Shown here: positions 3,138 to 61,801 of the stretch, piece after piece | Numbering within the stretch: the first letter of the stretch is position 1 | How the letters are laid out: each line of letters opens with the position of its first letter | Virus record (IMG/VR): IMGVR_UViG_3300001460_006335 | Location: 18,224-82,223 of that record | Reading direction: 5' to 3' (one strand) | DNA length: 64,000 nt | Source of the DNA: a virus | The notes under the pieces: generated by a model | The model's database searches: none | The model's input: only the letters and a program-made list of their open reading frames with translations | Told to the model about the DNA's origin: nothing | Translations under genes and position numbers: made by a program

Positions 3138-4066
3138 TTCCTTATATGGTTCCAACATTCGCCACTTTCTAATTCTTGAAAATTCCAATGAAACATACTT
3201 ATACGCCTAAGCCATTTTAATCTATCAAATTCTTTAGGGTTATCAATATCTAATATACTATGATTACTTACTTCTGCACATTGACTTTTTGTAGGATCAG
3301 TAGTAAAAGCATGATAGCCTTGTATAATTGGTCCAACAATTCCGCTACTATTTTTGTTTACTACTGCATAACAATTTTGTAAATCGTTTTGTAACCAGTT
3401 GTTTGGATCCACAACTTCAACTTTTTTCAAGTGCCTAAACGGGTTACTCTTTTGCTCTATAAAAAAGTTACGTGATTGTTTACAGCCTGGATGAGCTCTT
3501 ATTTTTATTCTTCTTTTACAACCAGCACTCCTAATTTTTTCTATTGTGCTAATAGTCCAGTCAATTACACTTTCTCCGCTCATACTCCAACCACCTTGCC
3601 TTTGTAATAGTAGTAAAATATGATCGCCATCTTTTTTATAATCTTGTAATTGTAGTCCGCTATTGATTGATATTTTATTCCATCTTTGTTCGTCTATAAT
3701 ATCATCGCAATATATTCCTGTGTTAGGAAAAACTCCGTTCAAACTATAACGCAAATATCCATGTCTATTTTTCTTGTCAGCATATAAAAATAGATTTGCA
3801 TCTGCAACTATAGTATGTTTATTATTTTTAATTTGATGATTAATTACTTTTTTTCTTAATTGTAAATGGCTAGGATTTACATCTGAATATACCCACCCTT
3901 GTATTACAGCGGCATCACAATCTATAGGGTGATAATCTCTATGTAGCGTTGCACTATCACCAGTACGTAAAACACCATTATAAAACTTAATTAGCAGTTC
4001 TTCTTTTTGGACATTAGTATTACCTCTTGGAACACTAGTTAAATAACTTACAACAGTTTTCTTCAT
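3125..4066 (-). CDS. GT-B-like glycosyltransferase, paralogue B
   Basis: A 313-residue protein that shares its second half with paralogue A: YSLNGVFPNTG, GDHILLLLQRQGG, RIKIRAHPG, CYAVVNKNSSGIVGPIIQGYHAF and VSNHSILDIDNP appear in the same order and spacing. The N-terminal 100 residues (KKTVVSYLTSVPRGNTN and following) have the look of the acceptor Rossmann half. The start overlaps the end of the upstream fusion gene by ATGA, so translation is coupled. The role is inferred as transfer of a sugar or polyol-phosphate to a glycan; the specificity is unknown. Confidence 0.6.
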   Translation of the reverse strand: MKKTVVSYLTSVPRGNTNVQKEELLIKFYNGVLRTGDSATLHRDYHPIDCDAAVIQGWVYSDVNPSHLQLRKKVINHQIKNNKHTIVADANLFLYADKKNRHGYLRYSLNGVFPNTGIYCDDIIDEQRWNKISINSGLQLQDYKKDGDHILLLLQRQGGWSMSGESVIDWTISTIEKIRSAGCKRRIKIRAHPGCKQSRNFFIEQKSNPFRHLKKVEVVDPNNWLQNDLQNCYAVVNKNSSGIVGPIIQGYHAFTTDPTKSQCAEVSNHSILDIDNPKEFDRLKWLRRISMFHWNFQELESGECWNHIRNYCQ

Positions 4067-5829: not shown

Positions 5830-6607
5830 TGTCTTTCTCCGTTAATTTATCAGTTGGTCCTTTCCACACTTCGACTATGTGTGCAGGCTTATCAGTATCA
5901 TTACAACCTTGATGCCATATTCCTACAGGAATATCTACAGGATTATTTGGATGTAAATTCCAAATTGAACAACCGTCAAATGGATTGTCTGATAGTGTTA
6001 CATTCGTTTTAACATATGCTTCACCAGAAACAATATTCCATGTTTCACTTCTATACTTATGTCTTTGCATACTTAATTTACTCTTTGGTGAAATAACTAA
6101 TTCTTTTACTTGAAAGCCTTCGCCCTGATATAATTCTCTATAATGCCCCCATTCACGTTCTACTTTTGGTGCCCGCCATTCTTTTAATATCCAACTGCTA
6201 GAATTTTTCTTGTCCTCACCTCCAATACCAAATACAAATTCTACACCAGGATGATTACCGTACACTTCCATTTCAGGAATGTTTACATCAGTTCTGTCTC
6301 CGCCATTGGCAAAAATAATTTTTCCACTTTCAGTTGACATTGTATTAAAAATAGCATGAGACGCAGTATTATCATCATCGTTAAAACTAATAACTTTATC
6401 TACAACAGAAAGTCCTTTAATTATTTCTACTCTTTCTTGTAGCGGCATAAATGGTTTACCTTTTTTTCTAGTTAACCATTCATCAGAGTTAACACCAACA
6501 ATTAATCTATTACCTAAGTTTTTAGCCGCTTTGAAATATGCAAGATGCCCTGAATGTATTGGATCAAAGCCGCCAGTGACTAAAACTGTTTTATTGTTAC
6601 CAGCCAA
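5804..6607 (-). CDS. Cytidylyltransferase-like/cupin fusion for nucleotide-sugar synthesis
   Basis: A 267-residue bifunctional protein. The first 145 residues are a cytidylyltransferase of the RfaE domain II/TagD type: VLVTGGFDPIHSGHLAYF with HxGH at 18-21, GVNSDEWLTRKKGK, and a late NGGDR motif. The last 115 residues are a type II mannose-6-phosphate isomerase-like cupin (ELVISPKSKLSMQRHKYRSETWNIVSGEA, then PVGIWHQGCN), with metal-ligand-like His residues. The expected reactions are CMP or AMP transfer to a sugar-phosphate and a sugar isomerisation or epimerisation step. The start is TTG at 6607 preceded by AAGGAAGGA, overlapping the FkbM gene by 11 bp. The exact sugar cannot be told. Confidence 0.72.
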   Translation of the reverse strand: MAGNNKTVLVTGGFDPIHSGHLAYFKAAKNLGNRLIVGVNSDEWLTRKKGKPFMPLQERVEIIKGLSVVDKVISFNDDDNTASHAIFNTMSTESGKIIFANGGDRTDVNIPEMEVYGNHPGVEFVFGIGGEDKKNSSSWILKEWRAPKVEREWGHYRELYQGEGFQVKELVISPKSKLSMQRHKYRSETWNIVSGEAYVKTNVTLSDNPFDGCSIWNLHPNNPVDIPVGIWHQGCNDTDKPAHIVEVWKGPTDKLTEKDIERADYRN

Positions 6608-58921: not shown

Positions 58922-59287
58922 TTAAATAGCAGTTAACCGTAGCAATGATTCTGTTGAGTCGTCTTCTGCTGTCCAAGTATATCGATTATTACTATAGTCT
59001 AAACAAGTTCTATTAAACATTTTTCTAATATTAATAGCTTCTCCGCCTGCGGCTATTCCAACAAGCAAAGCTTCTTTATCAGCATTTGGAGCACTACCAT
59101 CACTAGTAAGTGTGCAAACTCTTGTAACACTTCCTGCATCGTTTGAGCAGTTAAATTTGTTTGTGCCTCGTTGTGATAGAATCTTTCCTTCTATTAATGA
59201 TGATCCATCGTGAAATCTAATTGGTATTGTTGGTGTGGCGTCAACGCCTGTTGCACCAAAGTTTCTTTTATTGACTGGTCGTCCCAT
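58922..59287 (-). CDS. Conserved small virion protein
   Basis: A 121-residue protein. The sequence GRPVNKRNFGATG, then GKILSQRGTNKFNCSNDAGSVTRVCTLTSDG, then NRYTWTAEDDSTESLLRLTAI, belongs to a small structural protein family found near the fibre genes of marine T4-like phages. The function is unknown. It has a late promoter with a 75-nt structured leader and AAGGAG before the ATG, and is the first gene of the fibre operon. Confidence 0.7.
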   Translation of the reverse strand: MGRPVNKRNFGATGVDATPTIPIRFHDGSSLIEGKILSQRGTNKFNCSNDAGSVTRVCTLTSDGSAPNADKEALLVGIAAGGEAINIRKMFNRTCLDYSNNRYTWTAEDDSTESLLRLTAI

Positions 59288-59376
59288 GATTTTCTCCTTT
59301 ATGACGTTCTAAGTCTACGCTATGGGTCTAGCATAAGTCCTCTAATGAGGCTCACCTATTGACAATAGTATTTATG
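59288..59376 (-). promoter_or_regulatory. Late promoter and hairpin-rich leader of the fibre operon
   Basis: CATAAATA (59369-59376, minus strand) then a leader of about 75 nt. It can form CCTC-ATTA-GAGG and TATGCTA-GACCCA-TAGCGTA stems ahead of AAGGAG. Such a leader is unusual here, where most leaders are under 25 nt. Confidence 0.45.
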
Positions 59377-59404
59377 AAAAAAATAAAAATGGGTTATAAT
59401 GTAT

Positions 59405-59437
59405 AAAAAAGGCCTACCAAATAAATGATAGACCTTT
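59405..59437 (-). terminator. Strong intrinsic terminator of the candidate ncRNA
   Basis: On the minus strand AAGGTCTATCA and TGGTAGGCCTT pair over 11 bp (two G-U), with loop TTTATT, followed by a T6 tract. Confidence 0.8.
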
Positions 59438-59651
59438 CTATAATGTTGATAGGTTGGACTTCAGAATACCAACAACCCGGCTTTGCAGTCTGTTCTGCTA
59501 AATCACCAAGAGCCTAGTATTAAACAGTTACGTTTAAAGTCGCATCTTCGTATCTCTACGCTCATACGCTGTCACTACAACTACTAGCCAAGTTTGAGAC
59601 CTGCTATCTCTCTTCCTTGCACTATCTAACTAGGACCGTCGTCTTTGTTAT
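59405..59651 (-). ncRNA. Candidate non-coding RNA, about 245 nt
   Basis: This is the largest stretch without a protein gene in the window. It has its own extended -10 promoter (59658-59685) and ends at a strong terminator (59405-59437). Neither strand carries a credible reading frame. The RNA can form several helices: CCTAGT near the 5' end with ACTAGG near its middle, CGTAT/ATACG, TTAAAC-GTAACT-GTTTAA, GCAG-AACAGA-CTGC, and GTTGG/CCAAC next to the terminator. It does not match the tmRNA, RNase P, 6S or tRNA features that I know. It lies just downstream of a cold-shock-like gene. I call it a new structured RNA of unknown function. Confidence 0.65.
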
Positions 59652-59657
59652 ATACTT

Positions 59658-59685
59658 AATATAGCACATACAAAATAAAAGTCAA
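59658..59685 (-). promoter_or_regulatory. Extended -10 sigma70 promoter of the candidate ncRNA
   Basis: Minus strand: TTGACT (59680-59685), a 16-nt spacer ending in TGC, then TATATT (59658-59663). The TGn motif makes it an extended -10 promoter. The start site is expected near 59651. Confidence 0.7.
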
Positions 59686-59692
59686 CCTTTTT

Positions 59693-59884
59693 TTAAACTT
59701 TTTTTAAATTAAATGCATATCTTCTACTATTTTTTTCCATATGCTCGTATACAACCCTGTCTCCAATAATTAAATCGTTTTCTCTTTTGTCAAATAATAC
59801 ATCTCTTCTATATTGGCCAAAGGAATCGGGTCTAATAACTCCTTTGGTTCCAACAAATTTATAAACTTGGCCAGTTTGTGTCAT
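59693..59884 (-). CDS. Small cold-shock-domain-like protein
   Basis: A 63-residue protein. GQVYKFVGTKGVIRPDSFGQYRRDVLFD, then DLIIGDRVVYEHMEKNSRRYAFNLKKV, follows the cold-shock OB-fold pattern (GxVKxFxxxKGxGFIxPDxxxxDVFFH...LxxGDxVxFEV...xxAxNV), although the aromatic RNP residues are partly changed. It would bind single-stranded RNA or DNA. GTAGGAG precedes the ATG, with a TATAAATA late element upstream. It sits directly before the candidate ncRNA. Confidence 0.6.
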   Translation of the reverse strand: MTQTGQVYKFVGTKGVIRPDSFGQYRRDVLFDKRENDLIIGDRVVYEHMEKNSRRYAFNLKKV

Positions 59885-59900: not shown

Positions 59901-60569
59901 CTATTTATATTTTTGTTTAGCGGTGTTATAAATTATATTATCGGTGTAGTAATATTCAATTAATTTCTTTTTTACATTTGGTAAAGATAATAAGGTTGTC
60001 ATTTTTTCTTTATTATATTTGCCAAAGTTTTGATATTGTTTATTAGATGTGTATCCAAAAACTTTTAGCAAATGTTTATTTAAATTTTCCAAAGTCCAAT
60101 ATTTTGATCTTGTCTGCAATTGATTTGGATACTGCCATGATGTATTTTGTCTCATCGAATGTCCATCATTTTCAATACTAATTGGTAATATTTCATTTAA
60201 CCAAAATAAAAATTTTGTTTCATCAATAGAATCATTATACCAAGAGGTTGGTGGGTCTGGATATTTTTTTCTTATAGTTTTAAATAATTCATAATATCTT
60301 GGTTCGGATTCTCTTTCGTTTAGTCTATCTATTCCGTCAACTGTGTAAGGTAACCTATACATATTATAATTGAAAATAGATATTGCCCTTTCTAATGGAT
60401 TACGTATTATTGTTATAATTTTAGTATCATCATTACAATTATAATTTTTCTTATGTAATTTTTTATAATCTGTGTATAGATGATTCATTGTGGTTAACCC
60501 ACATTTAGGGCTCCATGTTATCCATAGATTATGTGTATGCCAGTATCCTGATAAGCCTGTTTGCATCAT
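59901..60569 (-). CDS. Sulfotransferase-family protein
   Basis: A 222-residue protein. The 5'-phosphosulfate-binding loop is WITWSPKCGLTTMNHLY (residues 16-32, compare PKTGSTS), and the 3'-phosphate motif is IITIIRNPLERAISIFNY (51-68, with Arg56 and the RNPxxR pattern). The rest (FWLNEILP, NTSWQYP, YWTLENLNKHL) fits the Sulfotransfer_2 type of glycan sulfotransferases that use PAPS. It lies alone between gp23 and the fibre operon. Two adjacent ATGs exist (60569 and 60566); the second fits the leaderless late pattern better. The target could be virion or host glycan. Confidence 0.75.
   Translation of the reverse strand: MMQTGLSGYWHTHNLWITWSPKCGLTTMNHLYTDYKKLHKKNYNCNDDTKIITIIRNPLERAISIFNYNMYRLPYTVDGIDRLNERESEPRYYELFKTIRKKYPDPPTSWYNDSIDETKFLFWLNEILPISIENDGHSMRQNTSWQYPNQLQTRSKYWTLENLNKHLLKVFGYTSNKQYQNFGKYNKEKMTTLLSLPNVKKKLIEYYYTDNIIYNTAKQKYK
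59902..59909 (-). promoter_or_regulatory. T4-type late promoter of the cold-shock-like gene
   Basis: TATAAATA on the minus strand, an exact match to the T4 late consensus. It overlaps the last codons (TAT AAA TAG) of the sulfotransferase gene and leaves a short leader with AGGAG. Confidence 0.65.
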
Positions 60570-60628: not shown

Positions 60629-61801
60629 TTAGCTGAAAGCAAGGTTGCTTGTATTGACTTCTACTTTTTCCAAGTAGTCAGCCGCATTACCAAGAGACGA
60701 AGCTGTGTTTGACAATTCAACATATCCGTAACGAGTCATAAATGATACGACTGGCTCGAATGATGTTGGATCAAGCACAACGCCACTTGACATCAACGGG
60801 ATGTATGGGCAATAGAATGCCGCGGCGTCTGATTCGCTTGTACCTTTGTAACCAACAAGTACATCGTCGTCAGCCGCATATGTGTTTACATATATCTTCA
60901 TTGCTGAGTTAAGTGTACCAACCATTTTGGTGTTTGTTGGTGCTTCAAATGTACCTTCAGTTGTTCTTGCGAACGCTGAGGTTGTTGCACTTTGTAGTAC
61001 AGTTAAGATTGCTGGTGACACAACAGCCCAGTTACCTGCGCCTCTTCGTGTTCTTTGAGCAATTCTGTTTGCCGCTCTGTTAACGAGAACAGCCAAAGCG
61101 GCGTGCTCATCACCAACAAAAGTTGCAGTACCGGATACACTTGCTTGATTGTATGTATCAGTACCTGTACCTGCTAGGGAAGCAAGAGAACCTAAGATCT
61201 CCTGATCGATTTCAGCAGTAATTTCTTGAGCAAGAGCCGCCATAATTTCGGCTTCTACATCAATACCATGCTGTGACTGAGCATCTTGTGCAGATTCAAA
61301 AGTCCATCGTGCTGATAGCTTACGTGATTTAGCTTCAACAGTCTGTTTTAAGATCTGAATGCTTAGTCTTTTTCCGGCTTCACCTTCAAGTGCCGCAGTT
61401 GCGTCTGCTTTACCTGATGTGGCGTTTCCGGAATATGCTTCCGCAATTTTAAATGGTGAAAGTGCTTCTTCACCTGCTACTGCGCCTGAGGCTCCAGAAC
61501 CAACAGTATCGGAGTACCGTACTCTTAGTGTGTGGATTTGACCCACTGGACCTGTCATTGGTTGTACACCAACGATTTCGTTTGCAATAACGGTTGGCAT
61601 AACACGTCTGATCACTGGTAGGATCACACGGTTAAGTGTCGCTATATTACCGGCAGAGGTTGCACCTGCAGTTGCTGTCTCAGCCAAATACTTACGAGTA
61701 TTTTCTAGCGTTGACGACATTACTGCTTTCTTTGTGCCTGAAAGGCCTTCAAGAAGTGCTGTTTTTGTCTCTTGCCAGCGACTTTCTAATAGTTCTGACA
61801 T
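60629..61801 (-). CDS. 23: gp23 major capsid protein
   Basis: A 390-residue protein (T4: 521, marine T4-like forms are shorter). NRVILPVIRRVMPTVIANEIVGVQPMTGPVGQIHTLRVRY is the conserved gp23 core; EEALSPFKIAEAYSG and AQEITAEIDQEIL follow. The N-terminal segment ends in KYLAE at residue 41 before TATAGA, a good gp21 cleavage site (L-x-E). AAGGAGA precedes the ATG. It forms the hexamers of the head shell after proteolytic maturation. Confidence 0.96.
   Translation of the reverse strand: MSELLESRWQETKTALLEGLSGTKKAVMSSTLENTRKYLAETATAGATSAGNIATLNRVILPVIRRVMPTVIANEIVGVQPMTGPVGQIHTLRVRYSDTVGSGASGAVAGEEALSPFKIAEAYSGNATSGKADATAALEGEAGKRLSIQILKQTVEAKSRKLSARWTFESAQDAQSQHGIDVEAEIMAALAQEITAEIDQEILGSLASLAGTGTDTYNQASVSGTATFVGDEHAALAVLVNRAANRIAQRTRRGAGNWAVVSPAILTVLQSATTSAFARTTEGTFEAPTNTKMVGTLNSAMKIYVNTYAADDDVLVGYKGTSESDAAAFYCPYIPLMSSGVVLDPTSFEPVVSFMTRYGYVELSNTASSLGNAADYLEKVEVNTSNLAFS

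Follow-up and report, generated by a model that had tools for sequence, protein, structure and literature searches.

What is the RNA that appears to be encoded beside the capsid genes of this virus, and does it control the gene that follows it or act on its own? The virus record comprises 82,223 bases, of which the final 64 kb were analysed here and are called the window. The initial annotation had proposed a discrete, structured non-coding RNA running from a promoter to a terminator. Every part of the locus is carried on the minus strand, in the 5' to 3' order 63-aa gene, sigma70-type promoter, RNA, terminator, CATAAATA, 68-nt leader and 121-aa gene. The features are as follows.

59693..59884, minus strand: gene for a 63-aa divergent cold-shock-domain (CSD) protein, predicted from homologue profiles and fold, immediately upstream of the RNA unit
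59658..59685, minus strand: sigma70-type promoter TTGACT-N16-TATATT with TGC before the -10 element; predicted start at about 59651
59443..59655, minus strand: structured core of a predicted divergent manA RNA (Rfam RF01745 match, type-B model R1, covariation)
59582..59587, minus strand: 5' strand (CTAGTA) of a long-range helix, pairing with 59519-59514
59514..59519, minus strand: 3' strand (TACTAG) of this helix, pairing with CTAGTA at 59587-59582
59403..59436, minus strand: intrinsic terminator with an 11-bp stem and T-rich tail, from a folding-based check of the full transcript
59369..59376, minus strand: late-promoter-like octamer CATAAATA (GATAAATA in most relatives), read directly
59285..59352, minus strand: freshwater-2-like RNA (RF02980) leader of 68 nt from a model match, ending at the downstream start codon
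58922..59287, minus strand: 121-aa gene in its own late unit, between gp23 and fibre-like genes

The extended -10 promoter described previously is present at 59685-59658, with TTGACT at 59685-59680, TATATT at 59663-59658, a 16-nt spacer between them and TGC before the latter. The site TTGACY...TGYTATATTA also precedes the RNA in relatives. Over the 215 nt or so past the promoter there is no credible gene, the overlapping ORFs being only 30-34 codons long and on the opposite strand. The 11-bp terminator hairpin, AAGGTCTATCA-TTTATT-TGGTAGGCCTT at 59436-59409 with a T-rich tail, was missed by a simple terminator scan and confirmed by a separate folding-based check, which gave its 11 pairs a probability of 0.95-1.0 within the whole transcript of the window. 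The minus-strand RNA folded at -68.2 kcal/mol, compared with -58.5 kcal/mol for shuffled sequences (z -2.2; 2 of 200 shuffles equally good), and the plus-strand RNA folded no better than its shuffles (z -0.4). A covariance alignment of relatives, as the initial annotation had suggested, revealed compensatory changes: RNAalifold predicted 36 pairs from 20 type-B RNAs (the window type, defined below), and 25 of these were compensated. Since this support coincides with a promoter-RNA-terminator layout that recurs in relatives, the unit goes beyond chance, and the window is predicted to encode a real, folded, structured non-coding RNA between its own promoter and terminator.

The long-range pairing originally proposed, CCTAGT (59634-59629) with ACTAGG (59518-59513), was not supported, being paired in 84 of 120 alignment cells against 81.7 in shuffled alignments. 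The ACTAGG segment pairs with CTAGTA instead. This CTAGTA/TACTAG helix was paired in 119 of 120 cells across 20 relatives (91.9 when shuffled), in an alignment that is biased towards it because the gap at column 161 was moved by hand. Its compensatory types are many and were read directly, with A-U, C-G, G-U, U-A and G-C all occurring at one pair. The alignment also supported a 5' hairpin, TAAC..GAC-GACG-GTC..GTTA.

Searches at Rfam gathering thresholds returned nothing in the window, and no tRNA or tmRNA was found within it. The only Rfam matches in the window with E < 0.1 were manA (RF01745) and freshwater-2 (RF02980); both scored below their cut-offs and were therefore tested via relatives. 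The manA match covered 59646-59443 and the full length of the model (1-192) at 31.0 bits, with an E-value of 3.5e-6 on the region and 3.6e-4 for the whole window against all Rfam families; the gathering cut-off of 55.2 bits is an annotation threshold and no structural feature. The Rfam check thus fell short at the cut-off in the window itself, while the E-value and the relatives supplied a family match. Homologues of the 121-aa gene were found at 71 viral loci, and manA in 16 of 41 records of these relatives, seven of them above the cut-off; at the loci checked, it lay upstream of the 121-aa-gene homologue. Relatives above the RF01745 cut-off include L073 (89.3 bits), L360 (74.5), L074 (66.5), L075 (62.5), L335 (58.0), L249 (55.9) and L288 (55.5).

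We also built a covariance model, R1, from 20 diverse window-type (type-B) RNAs. R1 matched the window at 59655-59444 with 180.8 bits (next match 5.9), and recovered accepted cyanophage manA RNAs with E-values of 4e-5 or better (L103-L106, L138, L203, L204, L208, L131, L140 and L141). E-values were 8e-15 for P-SSM4, 1e-11 for P-RSM4, 2e-7 for both P-SSM2 and S-SSM7, and 4e-30 for pelagiphage Mosig. Because of the full-length match, the relatives above the cut-off and this reciprocal detection, we assign the RNA, as judged from model matches, to a divergent manA subtype ('type B'), and the label 'unknown class' is withdrawn. The score below the cut-off is the reason for calling it a divergent subtype and not a standard manA member, and also explains why standard Rfam annotation misses it. 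One strict type-B pattern hit five stretches in bacterial genome contigs, all scoring below 7 bits with the model and therefore taken as chance; a bacterial-genome origin was rejected.

The window RNA shares with manA the 5' hairpin with a GACG loop, the basal stem, the AGUG core start, a GUGGUG-like hairpin loop, the long-range helix and the GGUA...AUCC 3' hairpin, and both are found in marine T4-like phages. They differ in their cores (AGUGCAAGGAA...AACUUG in the window, AGUGACUGAAUAAACUU... in manA), and the window RNA ends in its own terminator, outside any 5' UTR. The 5'-UTR position that goes with the RF01745 type 'Cis-reg' was not found, as a terminator and a separate late promoter precede the next gene; this is a matter of function and leaves the homology untouched. 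manA is an orphan riboswitch candidate. It is listed as cis-regulatory in PMC2864571, PMC9964418 and PMC10665884, whose searched passages assign it no ligand or function and do not describe the subtype, the free-standing context or the empty sites reported here. The manA family is known; these three aspects are new.

The gene downstream of the terminator belongs to a different unit. The late-promoter-like octamer precedes homologues of the 121-aa gene both with and without the RNA. The freshwater-2 match scored 37.7 bits (cut-off 49.9), with an E-value of 3.6e-4 in 621 bases and 0.038 for the whole window; all seven relatives' records that were searched contained freshwater-2, the best at 51.0 bits, and L289 scored 68.6 bits. 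In relatives above the cut-off it lies, like the freshwater-2-like element of the window, immediately 5' of the start codon of the probable structural gene, and it would be a late leader separate from the manA unit, 3' of the terminator. The 121-aa protein, which had no PHROG or Pfam match, is probably structural. The contrast between a sigma70-type promoter and its neighbouring late unit bears out the earlier remark that host-type signals occur here in a late region.

Upstream, the description of the adjacent gene as cold-shock-like was upheld. The window's 63-aa protein alone had no Pfam match, but 17 of its 19 homologues matched the CSD family PF00313 (best 2.2e-5), and cold-shock domains were the top PDB matches of the family profile. 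The predicted fold is a five-stranded barrel (pLDDT 90), closest to CspA (E 1.9e-3, TM 0.75), and we regard the protein, on this modelling, as a divergent cold-shock domain. Between this gene and gp23, a 222-aa protein (59901-60569) has a weak, below-cut-off sulfotransferase match (PF00685, E 0.007). Among named phages, gp23 itself (60629-61801) is closest to those of jumbo phages (Vibrio 2.275.O, 71%; Sinorhizobium Phosso, 69%; PA5oct, 66.5%; CBB, 65%), although the window RNAs resemble cyanophage ones; the type-B model had no match in these four phages.

A search from the CSD protein alone gave 85 loci, 83 of them informative. manA lies directly 3' of the CSD gene in 64 of these, and in the remaining 19 (13 distinct) the CSD gene lacks manA and is followed at once by the motif TAATAACCC and then the late unit. 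The 13 distinct empty sites retain the late promoter in every case and the freshwater-2 leader in 12, which indicates that the RNA is removable and that the late unit is independent of manA. Other manA-less relatives also keep the late promoter and freshwater-2 leader of the downstream gene. A terminator was found in 28 of the 31 distinct CSD-manA units having enough sequence. By these comparisons, promoter, manA and terminator form a modular unit that is present or absent at one site, and it looks as if marine phages gain and lose it as a whole. Modularity and the independence of the downstream unit are, like the family relationship, fold, promoter and terminator, read from the sequence itself.

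We then surveyed manA contexts using two pattern scans and the earlier loci, which gave at least 168 distinct RNAs, at least 92 of type A (cyanophage-like) and at least 76 of type B; the loci are mutually related and mostly metagenomic, so that counts are not independent events. Among the matches listed, a TTGAC..TATAAT-like promoter lies just upstream of manA in 137 of 160 (2.9 expected from mononucleotide shuffles), late promoters precede it in only 6 of 166, and one lies 3' of manA in 52 of 75 type-B RNAs. Strong terminators within 110 nt past manA, again among the matches listed, were found for 43 of 75 type-B (1.3 expected) and 27 of 91 type-A RNAs (1.0 expected). After clustering of the listed type-B RNAs at 90%, 13 of 20 clusters contained a member with a terminator, and in 10 of 20 these were the majority. 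tRNA genes lie downstream of at least 10 manA RNAs and just upstream of at least five. In the same slot as in the window, L324, L334 and L248 carry tRNA-Gly immediately after manA, with a terminator beyond it, and the manA end adjoins tRNA-Gly in S-SSM7. Since manA abuts tRNAs in this way, it does not have to be made as the leader of an mRNA. manA follows gp23 in P-RSM4, precedes purL in P-SSM2, and in pelagiphage Mosig stops some 20 nt short of a rubrerythrin gene. Many type-A RNAs have no terminator and lie 20-100 nt before ORFs that, by eye, resemble gp32, transaldolase or HAD-type phosphatase, or are small genes. No one pathway fits the genes after manA.

Our preferred reading, which we hold with modest confidence, is that manA here would be a free-standing RNA, made early and acting in trans. 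We infer the existence of the transcript, its timing, its trans action and its binding partner as follows. Unmodified host RNA polymerase would start at the sigma70-type promoter and stop at the intrinsic terminator just past the fold, which would yield a separate transcript some 240 nt long; as such a promoter is read by unmodified polymerase, expression would probably be early in infection, a label that rests on promoter type. The stable folded RNA would then act in trans, its conserved core (AGUGCAAGGAA...AACUUG plus the GGUA-NN-C-NNN-A-N-UCC hairpin) most likely binding a protein, of host or phage, or a small molecule. The RNA would not be a leader of the capsid-region gene, for which a separate late promoter and freshwater-2-like leader are present. 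Phage T4 offers a parallel in its stable RNAs C and D of the tRNA cluster, free-standing RNAs of unknown function; they resemble the manA unit, by description only, in being free-standing and near tRNA genes. Against the free-standing reading stand the terminator-less type-A RNAs before ORFs and the Mosig arrangement, as cis-regulation predicts, and the score of the window RNA below the Rfam cut-off. A narrow literature search found no transcriptomic mention of manA in infected cells.

If RNAs of this kind act in trans, the Rfam type 'cis-reg' probably fails to describe the free-standing marine subset. A broader proposal, which we put forward tentatively, is that a large marine-phage manA subtype may be an early trans-acting RNA gene in a modular promoter-RNA-terminator cassette, and that the cyanophage 'leaders' may represent this RNA in cases where it has stayed attached to a gene or tRNA. 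Should many phage manA copies be RNA genes in their own right, looking for a riboswitch ligand may be the wrong approach to them, and pull-down, Northern blotting and deletion would be fitting tests. Phages that naturally carry or lack the cassette at a shared site provide pairs in which this question can be tested directly.

An attenuation riboswitch, with manA as the aptamer and the terminator as the expression platform that decides whether transcripts from the early promoter extend into the structural gene, is in our view unlikely. It would agree with the classification of manA as cis-regulatory and a likely riboswitch by Rfam and Weinberg et al. 2010 (PMC2864571), with a terminator that usually starts 18-21 nt past the manA core, and with the ORFs that follow many type-A RNAs. 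However, we saw no antiterminator co-varying with the terminator. Pairing of the terminator arms was no stronger with the manA of their own locus than with those of others (-0.16 kcal/mol, sd 2.2), and the stem probability beside the manA fold averaged 0.97, so that no antiterminator is visible. The riboswitch reading also sits poorly with a downstream gene that keeps its own late promoter and leader where manA is absent, and with sister loci that have a tRNA, not an ORF, after manA.

We give little credence to a processive-antitermination leader like HK022 put, in which the nascent RNA would bind RNA polymerase and let it pass terminators into tRNA or early genes. The put RNA antiterminates without any phage protein (PMC9378689) and, like manA, is a phage RNA right behind an early promoter and indifferent to the following gene. 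manA is nearly always promoter-proximal and phage-borne, and the sequence behind it is varied (terminators, tRNAs, gp32-like and transaldolase-like genes). Yet manA is a larger, multi-helix RNA, compared with put here by its promoter-proximal position, and read-through would serve little in the window because a separate late unit comes first past the terminator.

It is similarly improbable that the RNA works as a ribonucleoprotein with the CSD protein encoded upstream. The protein's predicted cold-shock fold and the 64 loci in which manA directly follows it would favour such a pair, but the protein is found without manA at the 19 loci described above, and 52 of 72 type-B RNAs among the matches listed have no such protein upstream. 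As each occurs alone, we reject an obligate partnership as unproven, and the linkage may be positional only. Finally, a wholly new RNA class, to which the absence of a match at Rfam gathering thresholds had pointed, is contradicted by the full-length manA match, the relatives above the cut-off and the reciprocal model matches, and is very improbable.

Several further elements were observed near manA RNAs. The viral contig L322 has a tmRNA match at 6060-6430 (alpha_tmRNA, 127.4 bits; permuted tmRNA model, 119.4 bits) adjoining several tRNA genes and a type-B manA, and L286 has a glutamine riboswitch (3376-3423, 53.3 bits) beside a tRNA and upstream of a type-B manA. A conserved hairpin, GACCTAAGATGCAACTC-N4-GAGTCGGGCAGATGGTC, lies downstream of manA in L165, L170, L195, L203, L218, L241 and others, 9-16 nt past many cyanophage manA RNAs and often with a T-run; it may represent a second conserved element, or else a dedicated terminator. 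In L323, L332, L341, L280 and L313 a conserved element, ACACACCAGAGTAGATGCACCTACTTTCCTGTGCATAGGACAAG..., is found past manA within a long inverted repeat (AGTGTTTTAGTATACAC/GTGTATACTAAAACACT in L323); it had no Rfam match at gathering score in L323, the locus scanned. Another conserved, structured-looking element lies past manA in L326, L340, L254, L297, L251, L277 and L265; it reads AACTGTAACAAGAAAGGA...GGGTTGCGCCATAATACGCACGTTAGGGACCACGGTTAGTCCCTAA in L326. In this group of loci GTAGATGCCAATAGGGTCTAC comes after the element, ahead of an ORF, and scans of L326, L340 and L265 gave no Rfam match to it at gathering score. In L430, L275 and L292 the element AAGGGTTTTGTTCCCCTTGTAAAACAA.TGAGCAAATGGTGCCCAGGATGA... 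lies 3' of manA, with tRNA genes next in L275 and L430.
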